DNA from: a virus
Direction: 5' to 3' (one strand)
DNA: 20,391 nucleotides
Virus record (IMG/VR): IMGVR_UViG_3300046816_000349
Location: 1 to 20,391 of that record
Part shown: positions 1,365 to 17,546 of the stretch, piece after piece
Layout of the letters: each line of letters opens with the position of its first letter
How positions within the stretch are numbered: the first letter of the stretch is position 1
Made by a program: the position numbers and the translations under genes
Notes under the pieces: model-generated
What the model was told of the DNA's origin: nothing
The model's database searches: none
The model's input: the letters and a program-made list of their open reading frames with translations, nothing else

Positions 1365-1606
1365 GGTTTGATAACCCTGATCCTTTCCTGCTTGTCAAAT
1401 GTCTTGGCAAACGCGAGCTCCAGGGCGCGGCGGTTCTCCCTGGGTTCAGGTCCGTATAAATTCGTGACGTGCTCCTTCGCCTTCCGGCGCGATCGGGCGC
1501 GAGCCTGCTGGCGGGAGTCGGTCGAGGATTCGTAGGCCTTCTCGTTTTTGGTCCAGCGCTGCGCGGCTTTCAGCAGGGCCTTCCCTTTGGGAGTTTTCTT
1601 TCCCAC
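1361..1606 (-). CDS. Small basic protein, 81 aa, unknown
   Basis: GTG start at 1606 with GAAGGG about nine bases upstream. It begins only three bases after the stop codon of the preceding 29-residue membrane peptide, and its own TGA overlaps the next ATG. The sequence is rich in Lys and Arg, with MGKKTPKGKALLKAAQRW at the N-terminus and the stretch QQARARSRRKAKEH around residues 33-46. It is predicted to be mostly helical and has no hydrophobic segment. The charge suggests nucleic-acid binding, but no domain is recognised. It lies in a run of very small early-type genes on the left arm, between two membrane micro-proteins. Confidence 0.6.
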   Translation of the reverse strand: MGKKTPKGKALLKAAQRWTKNEKAYESSTDSRQQARARSRRKAKEHVTNLYGPEPRENRRALELAFAKTFDKQERIRVIKP

Positions 1607-1608
1607 AA

Positions 1609-1698
1609 TTAAAACCCTTCGAAAACAGTTTCAAGTGCCAAGCAACCGAGCCACAAAATCAGACCGGCCGATACGAGCCATTCCGCGAAGTGAAGCAT
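1609..1698 (-). CDS. Micro-protein, 29 aa, membrane helix with strong RBS
   Basis: The 29-codon frame starts at ATG 1698, preceded by a textbook AGGAGG (1703-1708) at a four-base spacing, and ends in TAA at 1609. The ribosome binding site fills most of the short gap to the upstream 59-residue gene. The protein opens with MLHFAEWL, has a hydrophobic core SAGLILWLGCLAL, and ends in the acidic ETVFEGF. This fits one transmembrane helix with a short cytoplasmic or periplasmic tail. It is not related in sequence to the other 29-residue peptide at 1275-1364, although the length and layout match. No function can be assigned. Confidence 0.6.
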   Translation of the reverse strand: MLHFAEWLVSAGLILWLGCLALETVFEGF

Positions 1699-1713
1699 AG
1701 TGCCTCCTGTAAT

Positions 1714-1893
1714 TTATTGGCCTACAAATCGAGTTTTTTGCCCATTTTTTATTCGATAAAAACTGGTAATGGTTTCTGGTTTAGTTTCAGAAATTACAAA
1801 CTTATTTTCTTGTTCAAAAACGTACACAACACTTTTTTGAGCCATACTTTTTCTGCATGCCCTATCTAGTATTTCACCAATATTTTCATTCAC
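1714..1893 (-). CDS. AT-rich small protein, 59 aa, unknown
   Basis: GTG start at 1893 with GGAGGG (1900-1905) six bases upstream, reading 59 codons to TAA at 1714. By direct count 56 of 180 bases are G or C (31%), clearly lower than the neighbouring genes, and AAA, AAT and TTT codons are frequent. This suggests recent acquisition or a different selection history. The protein begins MNENIGEILDRACRKS, then has a probable beta hairpin (SVVYVFEQENKFVISETK) and a basic C-terminus (RIKNGQKTRFVGQ). No transmembrane segment and no known domain are seen. The ribosome binding site of the next gene starts six bases after its stop, so the two are probably co-transcribed. Confidence 0.6.
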   Translation of the reverse strand: MNENIGEILDRACRKSMAQKSVVYVFEQENKFVISETKPETITSFYRIKNGQKTRFVGQ

Positions 1894-2115
1894 AGTTTAC
1901 CCTCCTCAAGTTTAGGAGAGGCAGGCGCGCTCCGGCCGGTTAATCCGGTACTGCCGCGCCCGCGTTCCTGATTGTTAGGGATGCGGTCCAGATAACCCCC
2001 ACTGTCCCAGGGTTAGGAGGATGACGCCTCTAGAAATCTGTGTCGCATCCCTCAGGGAAGCCACGGTTCATAACGCCGTGGATTCCTTGCCGGCCGCGAC
2101 CTTTGCGTGCCCCGC
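1894..2115. other. Noncoding gap with short inverted repeats
   Basis: These 222 bases hold no supported gene. Three short inverted repeats are visible: GGCAG 1920-1924 with CTGCC 1951-1955, enclosing CCGG-TTAAT-CCGG; TCCC-TCA-GGGA at 2048-2058; and CCACGG 2061-2066 with CCGTGG 2076-2081. The last lies 35-55 bases past the stop of the 213-residue gene, where a terminator or RNA-processing hairpin could sit, but no T-run follows on the minus strand. No clear promoter is seen. Confidence 0.4.
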
Positions 2116-2469
2116 TCAGGCCGCCTCGACTTCTTCGCGCTTCTCGATCGACTTCACGAAGCCCTTCTTGATAAGGTCCTGAATGTGCCACCTGAAAATA
2201 TTGTCGACGGCCTTCGATTCGGACCCGAATTCCTTCTTGCCAATGGTGTCCGTGATTTCCGCGAACGTCAAGGGTTCCTTCGCCGCCTTCAGCGCGCGGT
2301 AAATCACGGCGTTGTGCGTCTGTTTTTCCTCGTTCTCGTATCCGACCTTCTCGGGGACTGCCTTCGCCGTTACGGTGTAGCGAGTCGTGAGAAGTTTCTT
2401 CGGCTCGCGGACCTTTGCGGCCTTCTTTGCTGATTTCTTTCCGGTCAGGGCTTGCGTGGCGGTTGCCAT
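2116..2469 (-). CDS. Alternative internal product, 117 aa, winged-helix-like
   Basis: Inside the 213-residue frame, an ATG at 2467-2469 is preceded at a seven-base spacing by AGGAGG (2477-2482), better than the site in front of the full-length start. The product, starting MATATQALTGKKSAKKAAK, keeps the basic linker and the whole winged-helix-like half but lacks the N-terminal domain. Either the gene makes two proteins from one frame, or an ancestral pair of adjacent genes has become fused in frame while keeping the second start signal. The presence of the motif is direct observation; its use is inference. Confidence 0.5.
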   Translation of the reverse strand: MATATQALTGKKSAKKAAKVREPKKLLTTRYTVTAKAVPEKVGYENEEKQTHNAVIYRALKAAKEPLTFAEITDTIGKKEFGSESKAVDNIFRWHIQDLIKKGFVKSIEKREEVEAA

Positions 2470-2757
2470 GGTGGTGCCTCCTTTGAGTTTTTGTATCCAC
2501 TTCTCTACATCTTGAATCTCGCCGGTCGGAATGACCAGCGTGTCACAATCCCAGTGCTGAATAATGTCGGGTGCTGCGATCGGCTTCGACTTCCGGCCGT
2601 CTTGCGAGACGATTACCCGCGGAGGTTTCGTCGACTTGCAGGCCACCGTCGCCGAACCCCGCGTGACGTCAACCAAGATACCTTGTTTCATGCCGTATTC
2701 ATACAGGTCAAGATGGAATACGGCTCCGGGTTTCAGGGTGCGGAGGGGGAGTTCCAT
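2116..2757 (-). CDS. Two-part protein, 213 aa, winged-helix-like C-terminal half
   Basis: The chosen ATG at 2757 overlaps the previous stop as TAATG, with GCGGGGG upstream. The N-terminal half (MELPLRTLKPGAVF to about residue 96) is a mixed alpha/beta domain with no recognised family. A Lys/Ala-rich linker follows (KKSAKKAAKVREPKK). The C-terminal half, from about residue 145, has HNAVIYRALKAAKEPLTFAE, then a helical segment and DLIKKGFVKSIEKREE, which resembles a winged helix-turn-helix domain. DNA binding or transcription control is therefore inferred. A strong internal ribosome binding site and in-frame ATG at 2469 would yield the C-terminal half alone (listed separately). It sits in the leftward early operon. 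Confidence 0.65.
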   Translation of the reverse strand: MELPLRTLKPGAVFHLDLYEYGMKQGILVDVTRGSATVACKSTKPPRVIVSQDGRKSKPIAAPDIIQHWDCDTLVIPTGEIQDVEKWIQKLKGGTTMATATQALTGKKSAKKAAKVREPKKLLTTRYTVTAKAVPEKVGYENEEKQTHNAVIYRALKAAKEPLTFAEITDTIGKKEFGSESKAVDNIFRWHIQDLIKKGFVKSIEKREEVEAA

Positions 2758-2975
2758 TATAACCCCCGCTTTTCCCAAAAATCAACTCGTTCTTTACACT
2801 CTGACAAAGGAGCCGTATAGAGTAGTTTTCCGCCCGGCGTGTATATGTGCCATGGGTGATAGGCAGTCATTTCCGGGGTTGGAACGTGCGGCGTCATGTG
2901 CTCAAAGGCCCCGCACATTAAGACGTAACCCTTATAGGATTTTTCCGTCCACTTTGGTCTGTTAGGGTTAATCAA
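2757..2975 (-). CDS. Small hypothetical protein, 72 aa
   Basis: I place the start at TTG 2975, seven bases after AGGAG, giving MINPNRPKWTEKSYKGYVL at the N-terminus. An upstream TTG at 2990 would lie across the ribosome binding site itself. The stop TAA shares one base with the ATG of the next gene (TAATG). The protein is rich in Pro, His and Tyr (FEHMTPHVPTPEMTAYHPWH) and ends in a charged helix (SECKERVDFWEKRGL). It has no membrane segment, and no family is recognised. It belongs to the same short-gene leftward operon as the winged-helix-like protein. Confidence 0.6.
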   Translation of the reverse strand: MINPNRPKWTEKSYKGYVLMCGAFEHMTPHVPTPEMTAYHPWHIYTPGGKLLYTAPLSECKERVDFWEKRGL

Positions 2976-3352: not shown

Positions 3353-5647
3353 TTATAGCGAGCTCTGCCCTTCTCCCCGTGTCGAAATCCCTTTCCAGGT
3401 TAGATAGTTTCCTCCGCCATTGTATGAGCTGAAATCGTGCTCGCGCAGATAAATTGCCAGCGTGCGCCTGGTCACGGGGAACCGCATTCCATTTTCCTTG
3501 ACCCATCTCACGTAATCGTCGTACAAAACAGAATGCAGTATTTTTGTGTTTTCATCTTTCACAACGATGTCGCGGATAAACTGCCCGAGCGTATCCATAT
3601 TCTCTTTTAACTCCTCGCCGGCCTTGATTACTTTTTCAGGCGGCTGGAGACCGTTCTTCTGCCAGTCAAGGCAGGACCGCACACTACGAGCAAGAATTCC
3701 ATCGAGCTCGCCGAAAAGTTTAAGCGGAAGTTTTTTGTCTATTTTATTTTCAGGAACGCGATATCCAAACGGTATCCGGTGCAGGCGATCCCAGAGCGCG
3801 TGCGAAGATTCCTGAATCTTAGGGACGTGGTTTGTCACCATAAATAATTTAAACGCCGGCTTGAATTCGAATTCCCGGCCGTATAAAAACCTTGCCCGGA
3901 TCGTGTCCGAACCCGTGAGCGTTTTCACAACCGCGGCATCCAGCGTTGCCGCGTCGTCGGCTTCCGACGCGATTACGACACGGGCGCCGACCAGGTGCGC
4001 CACGTCATCGTTGGCACCCGTGGCCACCTGATTCTTCCTGAGGAACGTGGAGAACCTGGCTGTTTGTCCGTAACCGTCCGCGAGCGCGTGCAGGACCTCG
4101 GCGAATGTGGTCTTTCCGTTACGGCCATGCCCGTGCAGAAGAAAGAACGACCGCTCGGATGTGTCGCCTGTCAGGCAATACCCGAGAACACGCCAGAGGT
4201 ATTCAACCATTTCTTTATTTCCTTCCATGGCTTCCAGGAGGAAATTCTCGAACAGCGGGCAGGTTGCATCAGGATCATAAGCGATATCCGACAGCCTGGT
4301 GGTCCAATCATCTTTGCGCCCTTCGCGGAGTTTGCCTTCACGCAAGTCGATTACTCCATTCGCGCAGGCAAATAAGAACGGGTCAGCGTCAAAGTTATTT
4401 GTGCGGACAATCAACCGCTGCCTTGAAATCTGGTCAATAGCATTTAATCTCGAGAGTTGACCGGCATCGATCGCCCACTGTCTTTCTTTCTTAGATTCAT
4501 CAGGCGGCTGTTGCGCGGCACGCCTTAATAATTCCGCAGAGACAATTTCCGTCGCACGTCGCAATTCGGGTTCGGCATCCCGCTCCCAGGAAATACCATT
4601 CCAGTGCAGCCACATTTTCCACTGCGGGCACCAGCGGAAATCATCTCCAACCATCTGCACGAATATGCCGGCGTTCCCTATATCATTCCTAGTTGTTATA
4701 TTAGACGAATCAGAATCCGGGTCGTATAAGGCGCCGGCTGCCCCCAACGCCTGGTTGACAGTCATTTCACCATATGTGAGTTTACCGTGCCGTTCATCCC
4801 ATTTCTTTCTGAATAGCTTCGACTGGCGAAAGAGTTTATCTATTCTTGGCCCGTCTGCCCGCGTCCAGTAGCATAGGATCGCGCATAAAGAAAGGTCCGC
4901 CCGAGAATGGTCTCCTGCGTGGTCTTCAAGATTCCCTTCCCATAGCCTGGTAAACTTCGGCCCGTTCGCCGCCTGAACGGCTTTGTCCAGCAGGTCTTTA
5001 TCTTTAATCTTTTGAATGCGAGCCAGCTTGGCGTCTTTATGCACTTCCGGAGCCGGCCGTTCTTTCTTCTTGATGTCATCTCCGAATACCATTAAATATA
5101 GTTCATCAAGTTTTTGTTGCCGTTTTTCAACAGGCAACCGCGTTCCATATACATCTCCCGTAATCGTCAGATATTGTCCGGAAGAGTATATTTCAATTTT
5201 ATTACGACGCTTAAATTCACCAGGAGAATTTGCTTCTATAATAATTCGTACTCCCATTCCCGACGGAGAAATCTCGGTATAAGAATCCATTGGCTCAATA
5301 ACCGATAATGCCCAGTCGGCGATGACACCCGTGTCTTTATCACGGCAATCATCGATATCTATTCCTGTATAAGGGTCGGTTGCGGTAAACACGAATCCCA
5401 AACCGTGTAATGTGGTGTCTGCAATGAATCTATTAACGGCTTCCTGGTACGTGCCCCACGTCCTGGGCTTGTCTGTTGATGCCTCTAAACCTGTGTGTGG
5501 ATTGATCGGCATCTTTGAAAACTTTTCATTTTCTCTTTGAAATAATTTCCAGCAAATCCATTGCGGAACTTTCTTCAATTCATCGGGGATGTTCTTAAAT
5601 GCAGATTGAGATACACGGGTATAGGTCTTCGGGCGTCCAGCGGGCAT
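3353..5647 (-). CDS. Primase-polymerase/SF3 helicase replication protein
   Basis: This 764-residue protein combines an N-terminal primase-polymerase domain and a C-terminal phage/plasmid P4-type helicase. In the first domain, KMPINPHTG (45-53), GIDIDD (95-100, putative metal-binding acids), SYTEISPSGMGVRI (122-135) and IEIYSSGQYLTITGD (151-165) follow the family order. In the second, the Walker A motif GHGRNGKT is at 506-513, a Walker B-like VVIASEADD at about 557-565, a sensor-like VTN near 604-606, and WDRLHRIPF near 619-627. It would make primers and unwind DNA at the phage origin. The ATG follows AGGAGG at ten bases. It is the first gene left of the control region, so the origin is probably next to it. 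Arg replaces the common His in the SGxGxH primase motif, a known variant. Confidence 0.88.
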   Translation of the reverse strand: MPAGRPKTYTRVSQSAFKNIPDELKKVPQWICWKLFQRENEKFSKMPINPHTGLEASTDKPRTWGTYQEAVNRFIADTTLHGLGFVFTATDPYTGIDIDDCRDKDTGVIADWALSVIEPMDSYTEISPSGMGVRIIIEANSPGEFKRRNKIEIYSSGQYLTITGDVYGTRLPVEKRQQKLDELYLMVFGDDIKKKERPAPEVHKDAKLARIQKIKDKDLLDKAVQAANGPKFTRLWEGNLEDHAGDHSRADLSLCAILCYWTRADGPRIDKLFRQSKLFRKKWDERHGKLTYGEMTVNQALGAAGALYDPDSDSSNITTRNDIGNAGIFVQMVGDDFRWCPQWKMWLHWNGISWERDAEPELRRATEIVSAELLRRAAQQPPDESKKERQWAIDAGQLSRLNAIDQISRQRLIVRTNNFDADPFLFACANGVIDLREGKLREGRKDDWTTRLSDIAYDPDATCPLFENFLLEAMEGNKEMVEYLWRVLGYCLTGDTSERSFFLLHGHGRNGKTTFAEVLHALADGYGQTARFSTFLRKNQVATGANDDVAHLVGARVVIASEADDAATLDAAVVKTLTGSDTIRARFLYGREFEFKPAFKLFMVTNHVPKIQESSHALWDRLHRIPFGYRVPENKIDKKLPLKLFGELDGILARSVRSCLDWQKNGLQPPEKVIKAGEELKENMDTLGQFIRDIVVKDENTKILHSVLYDDYVRWVKENGMRFPVTRRTLAIYLREHDFSSYNGGGNYLTWKGISTRGEGQSSL

Positions 5648-5710
5648 TTAGGTGGAACCTCCTGATAGTTTACAGTTACGAACCCGCGAATAATACATCG
5701 AGCGGGTATG

Positions 5711-5739
5711 TTCTTGCACAACGTTATTTTTAATAAAAT
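5711..5739 (-). repeat. Promoter-associated element, copy A
   Basis: This 29-bp block is the partner of the one at 3253-3281 (23 of 29 identical, six transitions). It lies 63 bases upstream of the primase start. It overlaps a perfect hairpin, GTTATTTT-TAAT-AAAATAAC, at 5723-5742. A TGTATT or TATTAT hexamer at 5690-5697 on the minus strand could be the -10 element at the position equivalent to copy B. Confidence 0.55.
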
Positions 5740-5742
5740 AAC
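5723..5742. repeat. Perfect 8-bp inverted repeat with 4-base loop
   Basis: GTTATTTT (5723-5730), TAAT, AAAATAAC (5735-5742). It is fully complementary and AT-rich. It coincides with the AT-rich half of the duplicated promoter element. In copy B only ATTTT-CAAC-AAAAT of the same dyad is kept, which supports a protein-binding role. Confidence 0.6.
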
Positions 5743-5751
5743 ATTGGATTC

Positions 5752-5853
5752 GTTAGTCACTATTATTTAGCGAGCCCTTTTTTATATACTTTTCTTAGAC
5801 ACACTCCTATAAAAAGTATATAAAAACGCCATGACTAAATAATAGTGAATAAC
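5752..5853. repeat. Large concentric inverted repeat
   Basis: Outer arms TCACTATTATTTAG (5757-5770) and CTAAATAATAGTGA (5835-5848) are exact reverse complements. They extend four more pairs past one mismatch, to 5752 and 5853. Inner arms TTTTTATATACTTTT (5779-5793) and its exact reverse complement (5812-5826) share the same centre at 5802.5. The arms are separated by eight unmatched bases on each side, and the central loop is 18 bases. The structure lies between the divergent arms. It could form a cruciform, act as an origin, or present identical half-sites to two divergent promoters. Confidence 0.85.
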
Positions 5854-5923: not shown

Positions 5924-5954
5924 TGGACAAGACATACCATGATTCGGGTATAGT
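5924..5954 (+). promoter_or_regulatory. Candidate rightward promoter
   Basis: TGGACA (5924-5929) and TATAGT (5949-5954) each match five of six sigma-70 consensus bases, but the spacing of 19 is longer than ideal. It would drive the rightward arm and place a leader of about 100 bases in front of the 155-residue gene. No better rightward candidate was seen in this gap. Confidence 0.3.
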
Positions 5955-5964
5955 CCGCCCCGCT

Positions 5965-6024
5965 GCCCGAACGGGCGATCGCCGGCGGGTTCAACTCCTA
6001 CACTCCTGGAGGCAGGTTGAACCC
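5965..6024 (+). other. Structured 5' leader of the rightward arm
   Basis: Three dyads are stacked here. GCCCG-AA-CGGGC lies at 5965-5976. The perfect 10-base palindrome GGCGATCGCC is at 5974-5983. A 9-bp stem pairs GGGTTCAAC (5987-5995) with GTTGAACCC (6016-6024), and its loop contains CTCC-T-GGAG. The loop includes a GGAGG sequence, and the next start codon is 35 bases further on. It may be a folded leader RNA affecting translation or stability. The first stem contains a tRNA-like TTCAACT, but no full tRNA can be built. Confidence 0.45.
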
Positions 6025-6058
6025 CAAGCGATTTTAGAAACAGGAACGGGAGAATCAA

Positions 6059-6526
6059 GTGCCAGCTTATTCAAACAGTACTCCACCACAATCACTCCAG
6101 TCAGGCGGGGTAGGATATTCATTTGGCAGCATGGATTGGAACCACAACGTAGGCGGTCAGGGCAATCCAGGTTCTTCAGGTCCTCCCACAGTTCAGCAAG
6201 AAACCTTCGAGACAATTCCCGCGGCACCGCCGCAAGCCGGCCAGCGTGTTGCTGTATGTCAGCCGGCGACGGCGATCGATCCAGGTTCACGCACCGTGAC
6301 TTATGTCACCGAGTTTGATTTCGCTCCATCCGCGTTGTCTGTTTCGCTGCAAGGCGCAATGCGCGATGTTGATTCCGAATATGTGACGATTGATACAGAT
6401 TCTACAGACCACGCGCTTGTAAATTCAAAAGTTGTAACCGGCGTGCGGGAATTGTTCCTACGATTGATTTTGAATTCGATTACGGTAAACAACGCGACAA
6501 AAATGGTCGGAAAAATTCTGGTATGA
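6059..6526 (+). CDS. Hypothetical protein, 155 aa, first gene of the right arm
   Basis: GTG start at 6059, with GGGAG about six bases upstream. The first 75 residues are low-complexity and rich in Gly, Pro, Ser and Gln (NHNVGGQGNPGSSGPP), likely disordered. The C-terminal half (from about TVTYVTEFDFAPSALSVSL) is predicted to be beta-rich and ends in a hydrophobic strand-like VNNATKMVGKILV. It has no signal peptide, no membrane helix and no known motif. The disordered N-terminus plus compact beta domain is a common layout in phage minor virion proteins, but this is only a resemblance. It is followed after ten bases by the Tad2-like gene, which has its own ribosome binding site. Confidence 0.65.
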   Translation: MPAYSNSTPPQSLQSGGVGYSFGSMDWNHNVGGQGNPGSSGPPTVQQETFETIPAAPPQAGQRVAVCQPATAIDPGSRTVTYVTEFDFAPSALSVSLQGAMRDVDSEYVTIDTDSTDHALVNSKVVTGVRELFLRLILNSITVNNATKMVGKILV

Positions 6527-12393: not shown

Positions 12394-14789
12394 TGGCTGC
12401 TTTCACAAATGCGATGACGTTGCGCGATCCGAATACTCCGCCGCCGGATGAGAAACTTATGCGCCGGCTGGACCAGGCGCGTAACGTCGCCCCGCTCGAC
12501 ACAGATTCCCAGACACAGGGCGTGCCGAACCCGCAGGCGTCGATGGCGGACCTTGAAAAGGAAGACCCAGAAGCATGTGCGGCACTCAAAACGATTCTCA
12601 CGAAGTGCGCCCGCCAGATCATTGTAGCCCGCAGGATGCAAATCTACAGGGCTGGCCGGTCGGAATTGTACTATCTCGGGAAACAAAAGATATTCTGGAA
12701 CGGTTCGCAGCAGGAATGGAATGGCGTTGGCCCGAACGGTTCGATCGTTTCCGCGGAGTCTTACGAAGCAGAATCATTTGACTTTGTAACGAATTTCTAT
12801 AAAGGTTATGCTGAGTCATTTATGACTACGGCGGCGCAAAACGTTCCTGGGGTTCCATTCCATCCTGAGGACCCCAATCGCCGTGAAGATATTGAATCCG
12901 CGAAGCACGCTACCTCGGCTTCTGAACTTGTTTCGCGCTGGAACAATGCGCCGATGCTTTGTTCTAAACTCGCATACCACGGGTTTACCGGCGGCCTCAT
13001 GGCCACATACGTTCGGGAAGTGACAGATGGTTCGCAGTTCGGATACGAAGTCGATCCCCAAACAGGACAGTTGACAAATGTCCCGAAGAGCCGGCCGGTA
13101 ATTTCAATTCATGGAGCGCTTGACGTTTCAGTTCCTATGTGGGCGGACAGCCAGTCCGATATGGATTATTTGTGTTTGTTTACTGACATTCCGAAATCGA
13201 AGGCTCACGCGACCTACCCGTGGCTTCAAGGAAAAATTCCGTCGGTATCGGATATGCGGGATGACGATGTGCTTGCCCGGTTGTTCAGAGCCGCGGTTCG
13301 TGGAAACATCGCCCCAGTCATGCCTTCCGATGCGATGGAAGATATAACCACGGTGTTGCGCATGTGGATGCGTCCGTCCTGCTTCTGGTACATTGACGAT
13401 GAAAATATTCGCGGCCGGCTGTTGCAGCGTTTCCCTCAAGGTGCCTTAGTGCACTGGGTCGGCGCCCGCTTCGCAGCCGCCGCGAATGAGAACATGGACG
13501 ATCATTGGTCAGTGGAATCAGCTACAGAAGGCCGTGGCATGGCTCGTCCGGGAATTGGTGAACCGTTTGTCGACGTGCAGGACCAGATTAATATCTTGTC
13601 CAATCTATTTCATGAGTACCTTGTTTTTGGCATCCCTCCGATCTTCCATGATGCGAAAGCAATCAACAAAGCGGCCGTACAGCAAATGACCGCGAAAGTT
13701 TCTCAATTCGTTCCTGTAAATTTTAGAGACCAGTTGGCGGCGATTGGAGATTTGTTCTGGCAACCGCAAGCCGCACAAGTTCCTGAAGCATTGATCTCTC
13801 GCCTGGACGCCCTGGCCGGCCCAATTGGGCAATTCCTTACGGGAATATTTCCGGCACTTGTGGGCGCCCAGGCGGAGGGTGTCGCCGACAAAACGGCGTC
13901 TGGCTATAAGATGCAGTTGCAGCAGTCCATGGGACGTGTGGCGTTCTTTTACCGCCGGTTGAAATCGGTTTATGAAAAAACCATGTACAACGCAGTTCGT
14001 GAGTTTGCGAACAACCGTAATAAAGATATAACGCTATCCACACAAGACCCGACGAAGAAACCGCAGGCAATTAATCCTATTGCCATTCGCAAAGGTAATT
14101 TCAACGTATACGCGGAAGCGGATGACGGGTATCCGACACTATTCAGTGACGAGCAAAGTGTTGTTGAAAAGTTTATAGCAATGGCGGAAAAGAATCCGAT
14201 GCTCGCCGCTGATCTTGAGGAACCCGCGAATCAGGCATATATCAAGAATGTCTATGGAATGACGGATTGGGTTGTGGCCGGAGAAGATTCCAGGTTGAAG
14301 CAACTGAAAGAAATTGAAATGATGCTGGCCCCTGGAGTCGGGCCTGAACCGATGAAAGACCCGAATGAACCTGATCCGACAAAGGCTGCGGTTGTTGGAA
14401 TGCAGTCCTCCGTTCCGATCAAGCCTCTGGATCATGACGACATGGAATTTGCCACATGCCGGCAATGGGCAAATTCAGATGCGGGAATGGACGCCGCAGA
14501 AAATAATCCGGAAGGTTATGAAAATGTAATCTTGCACGCGCAGGAACACCAGCAGCGCATGCAGGCTCTTGCGGCGCAGAATTCTCCGCCGGCAAAAGTT
14601 TCGATCAACGTTCCACTTGACAAAATGCCGCCGGAAGCGATCGCGCAGGAACTAGAGAAACAGGGTATTCACCTCAGCCCGCAGGATTTTCAAGTGCAGC
14701 ATGCTATGCAGAAAGATTTGAAGGCTACGGCCCCGCCGAAGCCTGATCCGAAGGACCAGAAAGACAAAAAACAAGGAGAACAACAATGA
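12393..14789 (+). CDS. Portal protein
   Basis: The 798-residue protein follows the terminase genes and precedes the scaffold-like and capsid genes, the position of the portal in most tailed phages. The length is in the range of the larger portals, such as the P22-type. Internal features that fit are mixed alpha/beta N-terminal and wing regions. A long stretch from about IGEPFVDVQDQINILSNLF also fits, leading to the helical AEGVADKTASGYKMQLQQSM of the kind found in portal stems. The C-terminal about 100 residues are Gln/Pro/Lys-rich (APPKPDPKDQKDKKQGEQQ), probably a disordered barrel or tail. The start shares a base with the previous stop (TAATG). The call rests largely on context and length, since portals share few fixed motifs. 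Confidence 0.8.
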   Translation: MAAFTNAMTLRDPNTPPPDEKLMRRLDQARNVAPLDTDSQTQGVPNPQASMADLEKEDPEACAALKTILTKCARQIIVARRMQIYRAGRSELYYLGKQKIFWNGSQQEWNGVGPNGSIVSAESYEAESFDFVTNFYKGYAESFMTTAAQNVPGVPFHPEDPNRREDIESAKHATSASELVSRWNNAPMLCSKLAYHGFTGGLMATYVREVTDGSQFGYEVDPQTGQLTNVPKSRPVISIHGALDVSVPMWADSQSDMDYLCLFTDIPKSKAHATYPWLQGKIPSVSDMRDDDVLARLFRAAVRGNIAPVMPSDAMEDITTVLRMWMRPSCFWYIDDENIRGRLLQRFPQGALVHWVGARFAAAANENMDDHWSVESATEGRGMARPGIGEPFVDVQDQINILSNLFHEYLVFGIPPIFHDAKAINKAAVQQMTAKVSQFVPVNFRDQLAAIGDLFWQPQAAQVPEALISRLDALAGPIGQFLTGIFPALVGAQAEGVADKTASGYKMQLQQSMGRVAFFYRRLKSVYEKTMYNAVREFANNRNKDITLSTQDPTKKPQAINPIAIRKGNFNVYAEADDGYPTLFSDEQSVVEKFIAMAEKNPMLAADLEEPANQAYIKNVYGMTDWVVAGEDSRLKQLKEIEMMLAPGVGPEPMKDPNEPDPTKAAVVGMQSSVPIKPLDHDDMEFATCRQWANSDAGMDAAENNPEGYENVILHAQEHQQRMQALAAQNSPPAKVSINVPLDKMPPEAIAQELEKQGIHLSPQDFQVQHAMQKDLKATAPPKPDPKDQKDKKQGEQQ

Positions 14790-16253: not shown

Positions 16254-17546
16254 ATGTCCACTGGTTTAACAGGGGCGGGACTACTTGGCGAAATGTTTGA
16301 GAAGGTCGATCCGAACCTCTACAAACTTTTCGAAAACGACAAGTCGTTCTACTTCCAGTTGCAAAAGAAGAGCCGCACGGAAGAAGTATCAATGCGGCCG
16401 TACCGTATTCCGATCCAATTCACGCCTACCGGACTTGTGTCAGGTTACGACCCGGATGGCGGAGACATGGGTGTTGGAAACGGTCCGATCATCGACCATG
16501 CGGAACTGACCCCGATTTATACCAGGATCGCGGCGAAGTTCACGCAGAAAGCCTTGTATACCACGGATACCTCCGCGAAGGCCGTGATGAAGGCGAACAC
16601 CATCGTGATTGATGACGCGCTCAAAACGATGCAGATGGCTTTGGATCAGTACGCCCAGGGGCCAGGAAACAACCAGCTCGGAATTATCGCCTCGATTTCC
16701 ACCTCGGTGGCGACCATGACCGTTCCGAACGGGGCGAACGGCGTGTATGACGGAGAACAGGTCAACATCATTTCCGCGGATTTGACGACCTTGCGCAATC
16801 CGGGCGGCCCGCTGCAAATTCTTGTGCACGATGAAGTCGAATCGAACACAATTACATTCACCACCGATATTTCTGGACTCGGAATTCTCGCTGGTGACTT
16901 GATTGTCGATCCATTTATCACTCCATCGAATCCGTTTGGGCTGTTTGGTATCAAATACCACCAGAACAACGCGACCACGGGAACTTGGCAAAACTTGGAC
17001 CGTTCCGCTTATCCTTACAACCTGCGAACTTCGCGTGTGAATGCCGGCGGGGCAGCCCTCCAGCACTTGTTCGTGATGCAGGCGATCGCCAAGGGCAAGA
17101 AATCGATCGGCATTTCCATGTTCCAGAAGGGAAAGTATGCCTTCTATACGAACACGGATCAGGAAATTGCCTACAAGCAACTTGGCCTCAACGTTCAGGT
17201 CATCAATAAGCAAACTCCGCAAGGAAAAGTGACGGATAAGCTTGATGTCCTGTATTCCGGCGGCGTTGAGATGGAAGGTATTTCAGCTTTGGGTGGCGAT
17301 GTTTCGATCCGTGCCGACCAAGCCCGCATTGACTTCCTTGATATGACTCGCTGGGGTCGCGTAGTGACGAAGGAACTGTCATTCTACAAAAACCTCGACG
17401 GCCAGATGATCTTTCAGCAATACGGAGACTCCGGCGGGATCGCGGCATCCTGGCTCTTTTACTATGACATTGGTCACCAGATTTTCAATACCTGCCCGCT
17501 GGCCGGCATGTTTATTGACAACCTGGCCGTACCGAATCTCTATTAA
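16254..17546 (+). CDS. Major capsid protein
   Basis: The 430-residue protein follows the scaffold-like gene and has its own strong AAAGGAG seven bases before the ATG. The size fits HK97-fold capsid proteins. It has a long helix-like N-terminal segment (VDPNLYKLFENDKSFYF) and an extended region. Central alpha/beta parts follow (KANTIVIDDALKTMQMALDQ as a probable spine helix; ALQHLFVMQAIAKGKKS). The C-terminal part (WGRVVTKELSFYKNLDGQM, then SWLFYYDIGHQIFNTCPLAG) is strand-rich. An embedded beta domain near DLTTLRNPGGPLQILVHDE may be an insertion domain. No protein family can be fixed by eye, so the call rests on position, size and abundance-type translation signal. Confidence 0.78.
   Translation: MSTGLTGAGLLGEMFEKVDPNLYKLFENDKSFYFQLQKKSRTEEVSMRPYRIPIQFTPTGLVSGYDPDGGDMGVGNGPIIDHAELTPIYTRIAAKFTQKALYTTDTSAKAVMKANTIVIDDALKTMQMALDQYAQGPGNNQLGIIASISTSVATMTVPNGANGVYDGEQVNIISADLTTLRNPGGPLQILVHDEVESNTITFTTDISGLGILAGDLIVDPFITPSNPFGLFGIKYHQNNATTGTWQNLDRSAYPYNLRTSRVNAGGAALQHLFVMQAIAKGKKSIGISMFQKGKYAFYTNTDQEIAYKQLGLNVQVINKQTPQGKVTDKLDVLYSGGVEMEGISALGGDVSIRADQARIDFLDMTRWGRVVTKELSFYKNLDGQMIFQQYGDSGGIAASWLFYYDIGHQIFNTCPLAGMFIDNLAVPNLY

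Follow-up and report, generated by a model that had tools for sequence, protein, structure and literature searches.

A concentric inverted repeat next to a PrimPol-D5 primase-helicase gene as a candidate phage replication origin

The locus and its genes

The window, meaning the whole stretch of DNA that was analysed, covers an entire IMG/VR record (20,391 bases). Between its two divergent gene arms lies a 102-base concentric inverted repeat at 5752-5853, hereafter called the dyad. The left arm is opened by a PrimPol-HBD-D5 primase-helicase gene, whose start codon is found 155 bp from the dyad centre, while the rightward virion arm begins with a gene at 6059-6526 and continues with terminase, portal, scaffold and coat candidates. 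The features are listed below in the order of their coordinates.

3353-5647, minus strand: PrimPol-HBD-D5 primase-helicase of 764 aa, with a predicted C-terminal winged helix; proposed initiator
5674-5682, plus strand: 9-mer AGTTACGAA, also present in the primase 5' gaps of L093 and L094
5752-5770, plus strand: left outer arm GTTAGTCACTATTATTTAG, mirroring 5835-5853 at 18/19 positions; candidate initiator binding site, identical in the twin contig
5771-5778, no strand: left spacer, 8 nt, unrelated to the right spacer
5779-5793, plus strand: left inner arm TTTTTATATACTTTT, A/T throughout except for one C; putative melting element
5794-5811, no strand: central segment, 18 nt, without palindromy
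5812-5826, plus strand: right inner arm AAAAGTATATAAAAA, a perfect mirror of 5779-5793
5827-5834, no strand: right spacer, 8 nt
5835-5853, plus strand: right outer arm CTAAATAATAGTGAATAAC, with GTGA inside at 5845-5848
6059-6526, plus strand: first gene of the rightward virion arm, with a homologue upstream of TerL in several relatives

A twin contig, IMGVR_UViG_3300046817_001352 (G001; 28,781 bases), is 99.8% identical over a 13 kb overlap that includes the dyad. The dyad itself is the same in both contigs (102/102), and three substitutions at 5685-5704 fall outside it. The twin adds 12.7 kb of the left arm, which brings the genome seen to ~33 kb in total, and this part encodes a thymidylate kinase, thymidylate synthase, dCMP deaminase, family A DNA polymerase, VRR-NUC-like nuclease, MazG and SNF2-type helicase. 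A lysozyme gene with the opposite direction is located at the far end of the twin's left arm; the genome therefore consists of two long arms that part at the dyad and probably meet close to this lysozyme gene. Among the proteins that were searched in the ~33 kb seen, none was recognised as an integrase, a repressor or an RNA polymerase. We also observed that window positions 1600-2760 are only 90-97% identical to the twin, with gaps, far below the 99.8% elsewhere; small left-arm genes turn over in this segment. A C5 cytosine methyltransferase-like gene at 3-1088 shares 93% identity with the twin, and in L222 a gene related to it may follow the primase, as the opening residues look alike by eye.

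The primase-helicase matches PHROG 1829 and the Pfam families D5_N, NrS-1 polymerase HBD, DUF5906 and Pox_D5. Its sequence relatives in the PDB are NrS-1 PrimPol and the DNA primase 7ola, which we take to be the SaPI5 primase-helicase. An AlphaFold2 model (pLDDT 86.6, pTM 0.55) contains an H-E-H-H-E-E unit at residues 686-756, which by the order of its elements is predicted to be a winged helix, and a Foldseek search with the model retrieved hexameric and dodecameric viral PrimPols as well as NrS-1 N300. According to these matches and the model, the protein is an NrS-1/SaPI5-like D5-type initiator helicase with a predicted C-terminal DNA-binding domain. In SaPI Rep and the SCCmec helicase Cch2, it is the C-terminal domain that binds the origin repeats, or iterons (PMC7581432).

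Structure and statistics of the dyad

The sequence-only reading had described two perfect arm pairs, one of 14 bp (5757-5770/5835-5848) and one of 15 bp (5779-5793/5812-5826), around a common centre at 5802.5. Their coordinates and sequences are right, and so is the claim of equal 8-nt spacers that are mutually unrelated, with 2/8 mirrored positions in agreement. The outer pair is in fact longer, with arms of the form GTTA(G/T)TCACTATTATTTAG that extend over 19 bp with one mismatch (5752-5770/5835-5853). Across the whole dyad 38/51 mirrored positions match, which is the best in the window; the maximum was 30 in 100 whole-window shuffles and 31 in 500 shuffles of the intergenic region. The multi-block dyad score of 23 was reached in 0/100 shuffles (maximum 9), and the next-best dyad in the window scores 11. 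The dyad is therefore genuine, far from random expectation, and well ahead of every other inverted repeat in the genome seen.

As single-stranded DNA the dyad folds with -23.2 kcal/mol (z = -8.3), and it falls within the 100-150 bp of the window that have the lowest stability. Both of its blocks are unique to this site in the ~33 kb seen, with the exception of an inner-block match at 14167 that has 3 mismatches, and no other mirrored site or iteron array was found in the window or L083 (~33 kb seen). Within the 300-nt region 5' of the primase no 7-mer occurs more than twice (p 0.95), and the outer arm is present as one copy per side. GTGA is found once in each outer arm (5845-5848 on the plus strand, 5757-5760 on the minus strand), though this motif is common, with 73 and 64 copies in the window.

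Some smaller elements surround the dyad. A 12-bp AT-rich hairpin at 5719-5746 stands beside the left outer arm, towards the primase and within its 5' region. The 9-mer AGTTACGAA is a lead only, given that triple-shared 9-mers occur in shuffles with a mean of 0.06 and a maximum of 2. In the leader of the rightward arm there is a hairpin GGGTTCAAC...GTTGAACCC at 5987-6025 (leader fold z = -3.05) without an Rfam match.

Searches beyond the genome recovered little of the element. The half-site pattern of the arms was found in IMG/VR in the twin contig only. The inner mirrored arms alone occur in 25 other contigs, none of which has the outer symmetry or a related primase (L316 is truncated by its contig end). 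When the gap was compared with phages and plasmids by BLAST, only short chance matches were returned. Relatives by TerL and portal are many, but they possess other left arms, with a D5 primase in 0/20 records tested, the twin excepted, and hence cannot test the dyad.

Repeats beside related primases

We compared 38 non-redundant primase loci, of which 33 lie outside the window's own clade. An iteron array was defined as at least four copies of a 7-mer with p <= 0.01 and no more than 300 nt from the gene. By this definition arrays are located 3' of the primase in 21/33 relatives and 5' in 0/33, and concentric dyads above all 20 shuffles are distributed in the same way (3' of the gene in 22/33, with a mean dyad score of 10.6 vs 5.2, and 5' of it in 2/33). 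Concentric mirrored repeats next to the gene are thus a hallmark of DNA carrying the PrimPol-D5 primase family, and the window's score of 23 would be third in this family. Several, such as L211, L230, L125 and L247, are built like the dyad of the window, their inner pair being AT-rich and their outer pair longer. PrimPol-D5 primases followed directly on the 3' side by mirrored iteron arrays were noted in L205, L211, L241, L175, L176, L180, L230 and L171, with a perfect mirrored arm of 35 bp in L241. Such 3' arrays are widespread among phages and in MAGs of Planctomycetes, Acidobacteria and others, an organisation described as characteristic of PICIs (PMC6092414).

The inner arm of the window resembles the 3' regions of the family beyond shuffles (z = 7.5) but not the 5' regions (z = 1.2). 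About half of this likeness to the AT cores of the family is AT-run composition, because the reversed copy already scores 4.2. In a smaller set, ATATATA was found in the 3' regions of 12/15 loci vs a shuffle mean of 1.4. A likeness of the outer arm to family iterons, through GTTA and GTGA, is attractive by eye, but its z of 2.2 is matched by 2.1 for the reversed-sequence control and we gave it no weight.

For the checks that the sequence-only reading proposed, on shared arm sequences and on covariation, the one relative with the arms is the 99.8% identical twin, and the primase relatives with 46-52% identity have different sequence at the place of the dyad. These relatives (G021, G022, G023, G024 and G025) form the window's own clade, in which no iteron arrays were found 3' of the primase. 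For the window itself this side has no iterons and no mirrored repeat (dyad score 3, p 1.00). In G023, a GTTACCG array in mirrored arrangement lies 6.2 kb away from the primase (p = 0.00) and is likely an origin apart from its own initiator gene. This array, mirrored GGTTACCGAT around an AT-rich core, is located at L307 834-950 (G023 38835-38945), in a 71-kb phage contig. In G024, mirrored GGTTAA sites lie around AT-rich sequence of the divergent 5' gap (p 0.07-0.10), in addition to a weak 3' dyad (p 0.04). The remaining members contain a weak 3' dyad (G021; p 0.04), one mirrored 9-mer in the 5' gap (G022; p 0.28) and a weak mirrored 8-bp pair, likewise in the 5' gap (G025; score 5, 35/100 shuffles). 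Outside these signals, GCAGAGC is repeated in tandem in L093 (7226-7528), with ten copies in 300 nt.

The clade has therefore left the usual 3' arrangement, and a strong dyad 5' of the gene is possessed by the window alone among its members. The position of the origin seems to vary within the clade, since the G023 array is 6.2 kb away and G024 has mirrored sites in the 5' gap. A move of the origin to the 5' gap by the whole clade is unsupported, with the G023 array elsewhere and weak candidates on both sides in G024.

Origin or operator

We consider the dyad to be a compact mirrored replication origin of the PrimPol-D5 kind, with one long site per side, placed between divergent arms, and give this reading a probability of roughly 0.6. 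It is favoured because of the layout, the neighbouring gene, the empty 3' side and the lack of another candidate: as neither iterons nor a second dyad were found on the 3' side of the primase or elsewhere in the window or L083, the 5' dyad is the sole origin candidate. The sequence-only reading had offered either an initiator site or a regulator of both divergent promoters, and the initiator has gained from the 22/33 relatives and the annotated origin of phage A2, while the regulator is kept as a rival. Several points count against an origin, namely the single outer arm per side, its lack of likeness to family iterons above the control, the site 5' of the gene, and the closest other relatives (primase 46-52%), which do not have the same dyad. 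GC skew changes sign at the dyad, but gene orientation explains this equally well and the skew does not decide, because in either arm the coding strand is rich in G at its 4-fold sites.

From the arrangement of the arms and the predicted domains we infer how the primase-helicase may act here. Its C-terminal winged helix would recognise one long outer arm per side, and two hexamers would assemble on the outer arms in opposite orientation. The AT-rich inner arms would then melt, and the exposed strands could be primed by the PrimPol/HBD part and extended by the phage PolA, with two forks moving outward along both divergent gene arms. A more specific version, which we regard as doubtful, is a symmetric double origin. 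Each half would possess its own long recognition arm and melting element, separated by 8-nt unconstrained linkers, and would load one hexamer; with one GTGA priming site near either outer edge, on different strands, each of the two leading strands would begin at its own edge and run across the centre. If true, the iteron origins of PrimPol-D5 initiators would here be reduced to a minimal single-copy form and moved to the divergent centre, so that replication would be co-directional with transcription on leaving it.

The principal alternative is that the dyad is the operator/promoter of the divergent transcripts, with mirrored sites for a regulator or an autoregulating initiator and with promoters in or beside the arms. 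We find this unlikely on balance, though it stays alive because of the divergent position, the single-copy sites and the strong sigma70 promoter in the 5' gap of G021. Both arms are in need of promoters and the dyad sits between them; a weak rightward TAGACA-N17-TATAAA lies inside it at 5796-5824, but at the mirrored position of this -35 stands TAGGAG, and the conserved blocks are unlike -35/-10 elements. The rest of the gap has no significant sigma70 promoter (p 0.27 and 0.47 vs shuffles in the two directions, by an E. coli-like consensus that may not be that of the host), and the identical outward half-elements could consequently be the promoters; the best rightward candidate outside the dyad is TGGACA-N19-TATAGT at 5924-5954. 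The 5' gap can be a promoter region, since that of L093 contains a clear sigma70 promoter, TTGACA-N17-TAGAAT, with a short palindrome just downstream, and a possible regulator is the protein with a weak HTH match encoded in the left arm (2116-2778). Against an operator, neither block recurs at another gene start in 33 kb, the inner arms resemble the origin cores of the family beyond chance, and the primase would be left without a recognisable origin. The two functions may also coexist, since it is common for initiators, as in iteron plasmids, to repress their own gene by way of origin-like sites. An archaeal BRE/TATA promoter, for which the block spacing fits, was rejected by inference, because the phage lysozyme encoded by the twin contig points to a bacterial host.

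Far less probable is a site for recombination, packaging start or telomere resolution. Large palindromes do occur at such sites, but the 18-nt centre lacks the palindromy of a protelomerase target, the searched proteins of the ~33 kb seen included no recognisable integrase or protelomerase, the dyad is internal to both assemblies, and the putative small terminase gene is 3.7 kb off. Least credible of all is a role as RNA, such as a bidirectional terminator, riboswitch or similar hairpin: the dyad strand folds well, but it lies upstream of both arms without a GC-rich stem, and Rfam (at gathering score), tRNA and terminator scans gave no match.

Comparison with known systems

The sequence-only reading knew no described phage origin with this layout. 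As we show above, the concentric mirrored layout is common in the primase family, and the claim holds in so far as the family has it at the opposite flank of the gene, mostly built from several short iterons. Phage divergent promoter/operator regions, as generally known, likewise have mirrored sites between divergent arms, but the gap of the window lacks a sigma70 promoter above chance.

NrS-1 has PrimPol and HBD domains homologous to those of the window, while the C-terminal half of its protein differs and an 11-copy iteron array is located 3' of the gene. This AAGTGTAA array (AAGTGTAACC array) contains the published 8-nt primase recognition site TTTGGTTA, and GTGA, from the GTGA/GTGG priming motif, is also used for priming by the NrS-1 polymerase (PMC7102993, PMC8718748). 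TTTGGTTA has 0 copies in the window and L083. Two copies are reported for NrS-1 (PMC7102993); our exact search of the deposited genome (L091, region 17051-17460) gave one, at 17198 on the minus strand.

The pri-rep-ori modules of SaPIs and PICIs share with the window a D5-type initiator helicase with a C-terminal DNA-binding domain, predicted by model for the window, and an AT-rich melting region with a set of sites on either side (PMC6092414, PMC7581432). PICI origins are found immediately 3' of rep with several iterons, unlike the window element, which belongs to a phage with divergent arms. In the A2/phi105-type module, the primase-helicase is homologous to that of the window (33-36% identity) and mirrored sites again surround an AT-rich core. 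In phage A2 (AJ251789) the annotated rep_origin directly follows the primase on its 3' side; ACGGGAGG iterons come first, then an AT-rich core that contains AAAAAGTATATATATAAAAAC, then the ACGGGAGG iterons in inverted orientation. The core AAAAAGTATATATATAAAAAC nearly equals AAAAAGTATATAAAAAC of the window, but A2 has ~7 short iterons 3' of the gene and the window one long site per side 5' of it.

With the PICI/A2 type the dyad thus shares mirrored sites flanking an AT-rich segment and an adjacent D5-type helicase with a predicted C-terminal DNA-binding domain; it has neither several short iterons per side nor a position immediately 3' of the initiator gene. Because of these two differences in defining features we set it apart from this type, though it would work like one. 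If the dyad is an origin, one site per side suffices for a PrimPol-D5 initiator without an array, providing a clean substrate for opposite hexamer loading, and the place of the origin relative to the initiator gene can change inside one clade. Mirrored-iteron origins 3' of the primase, as in PICIs and the A2 annotation, seem to be widespread, which our survey suggests for phages and elements of many bacterial phyla.
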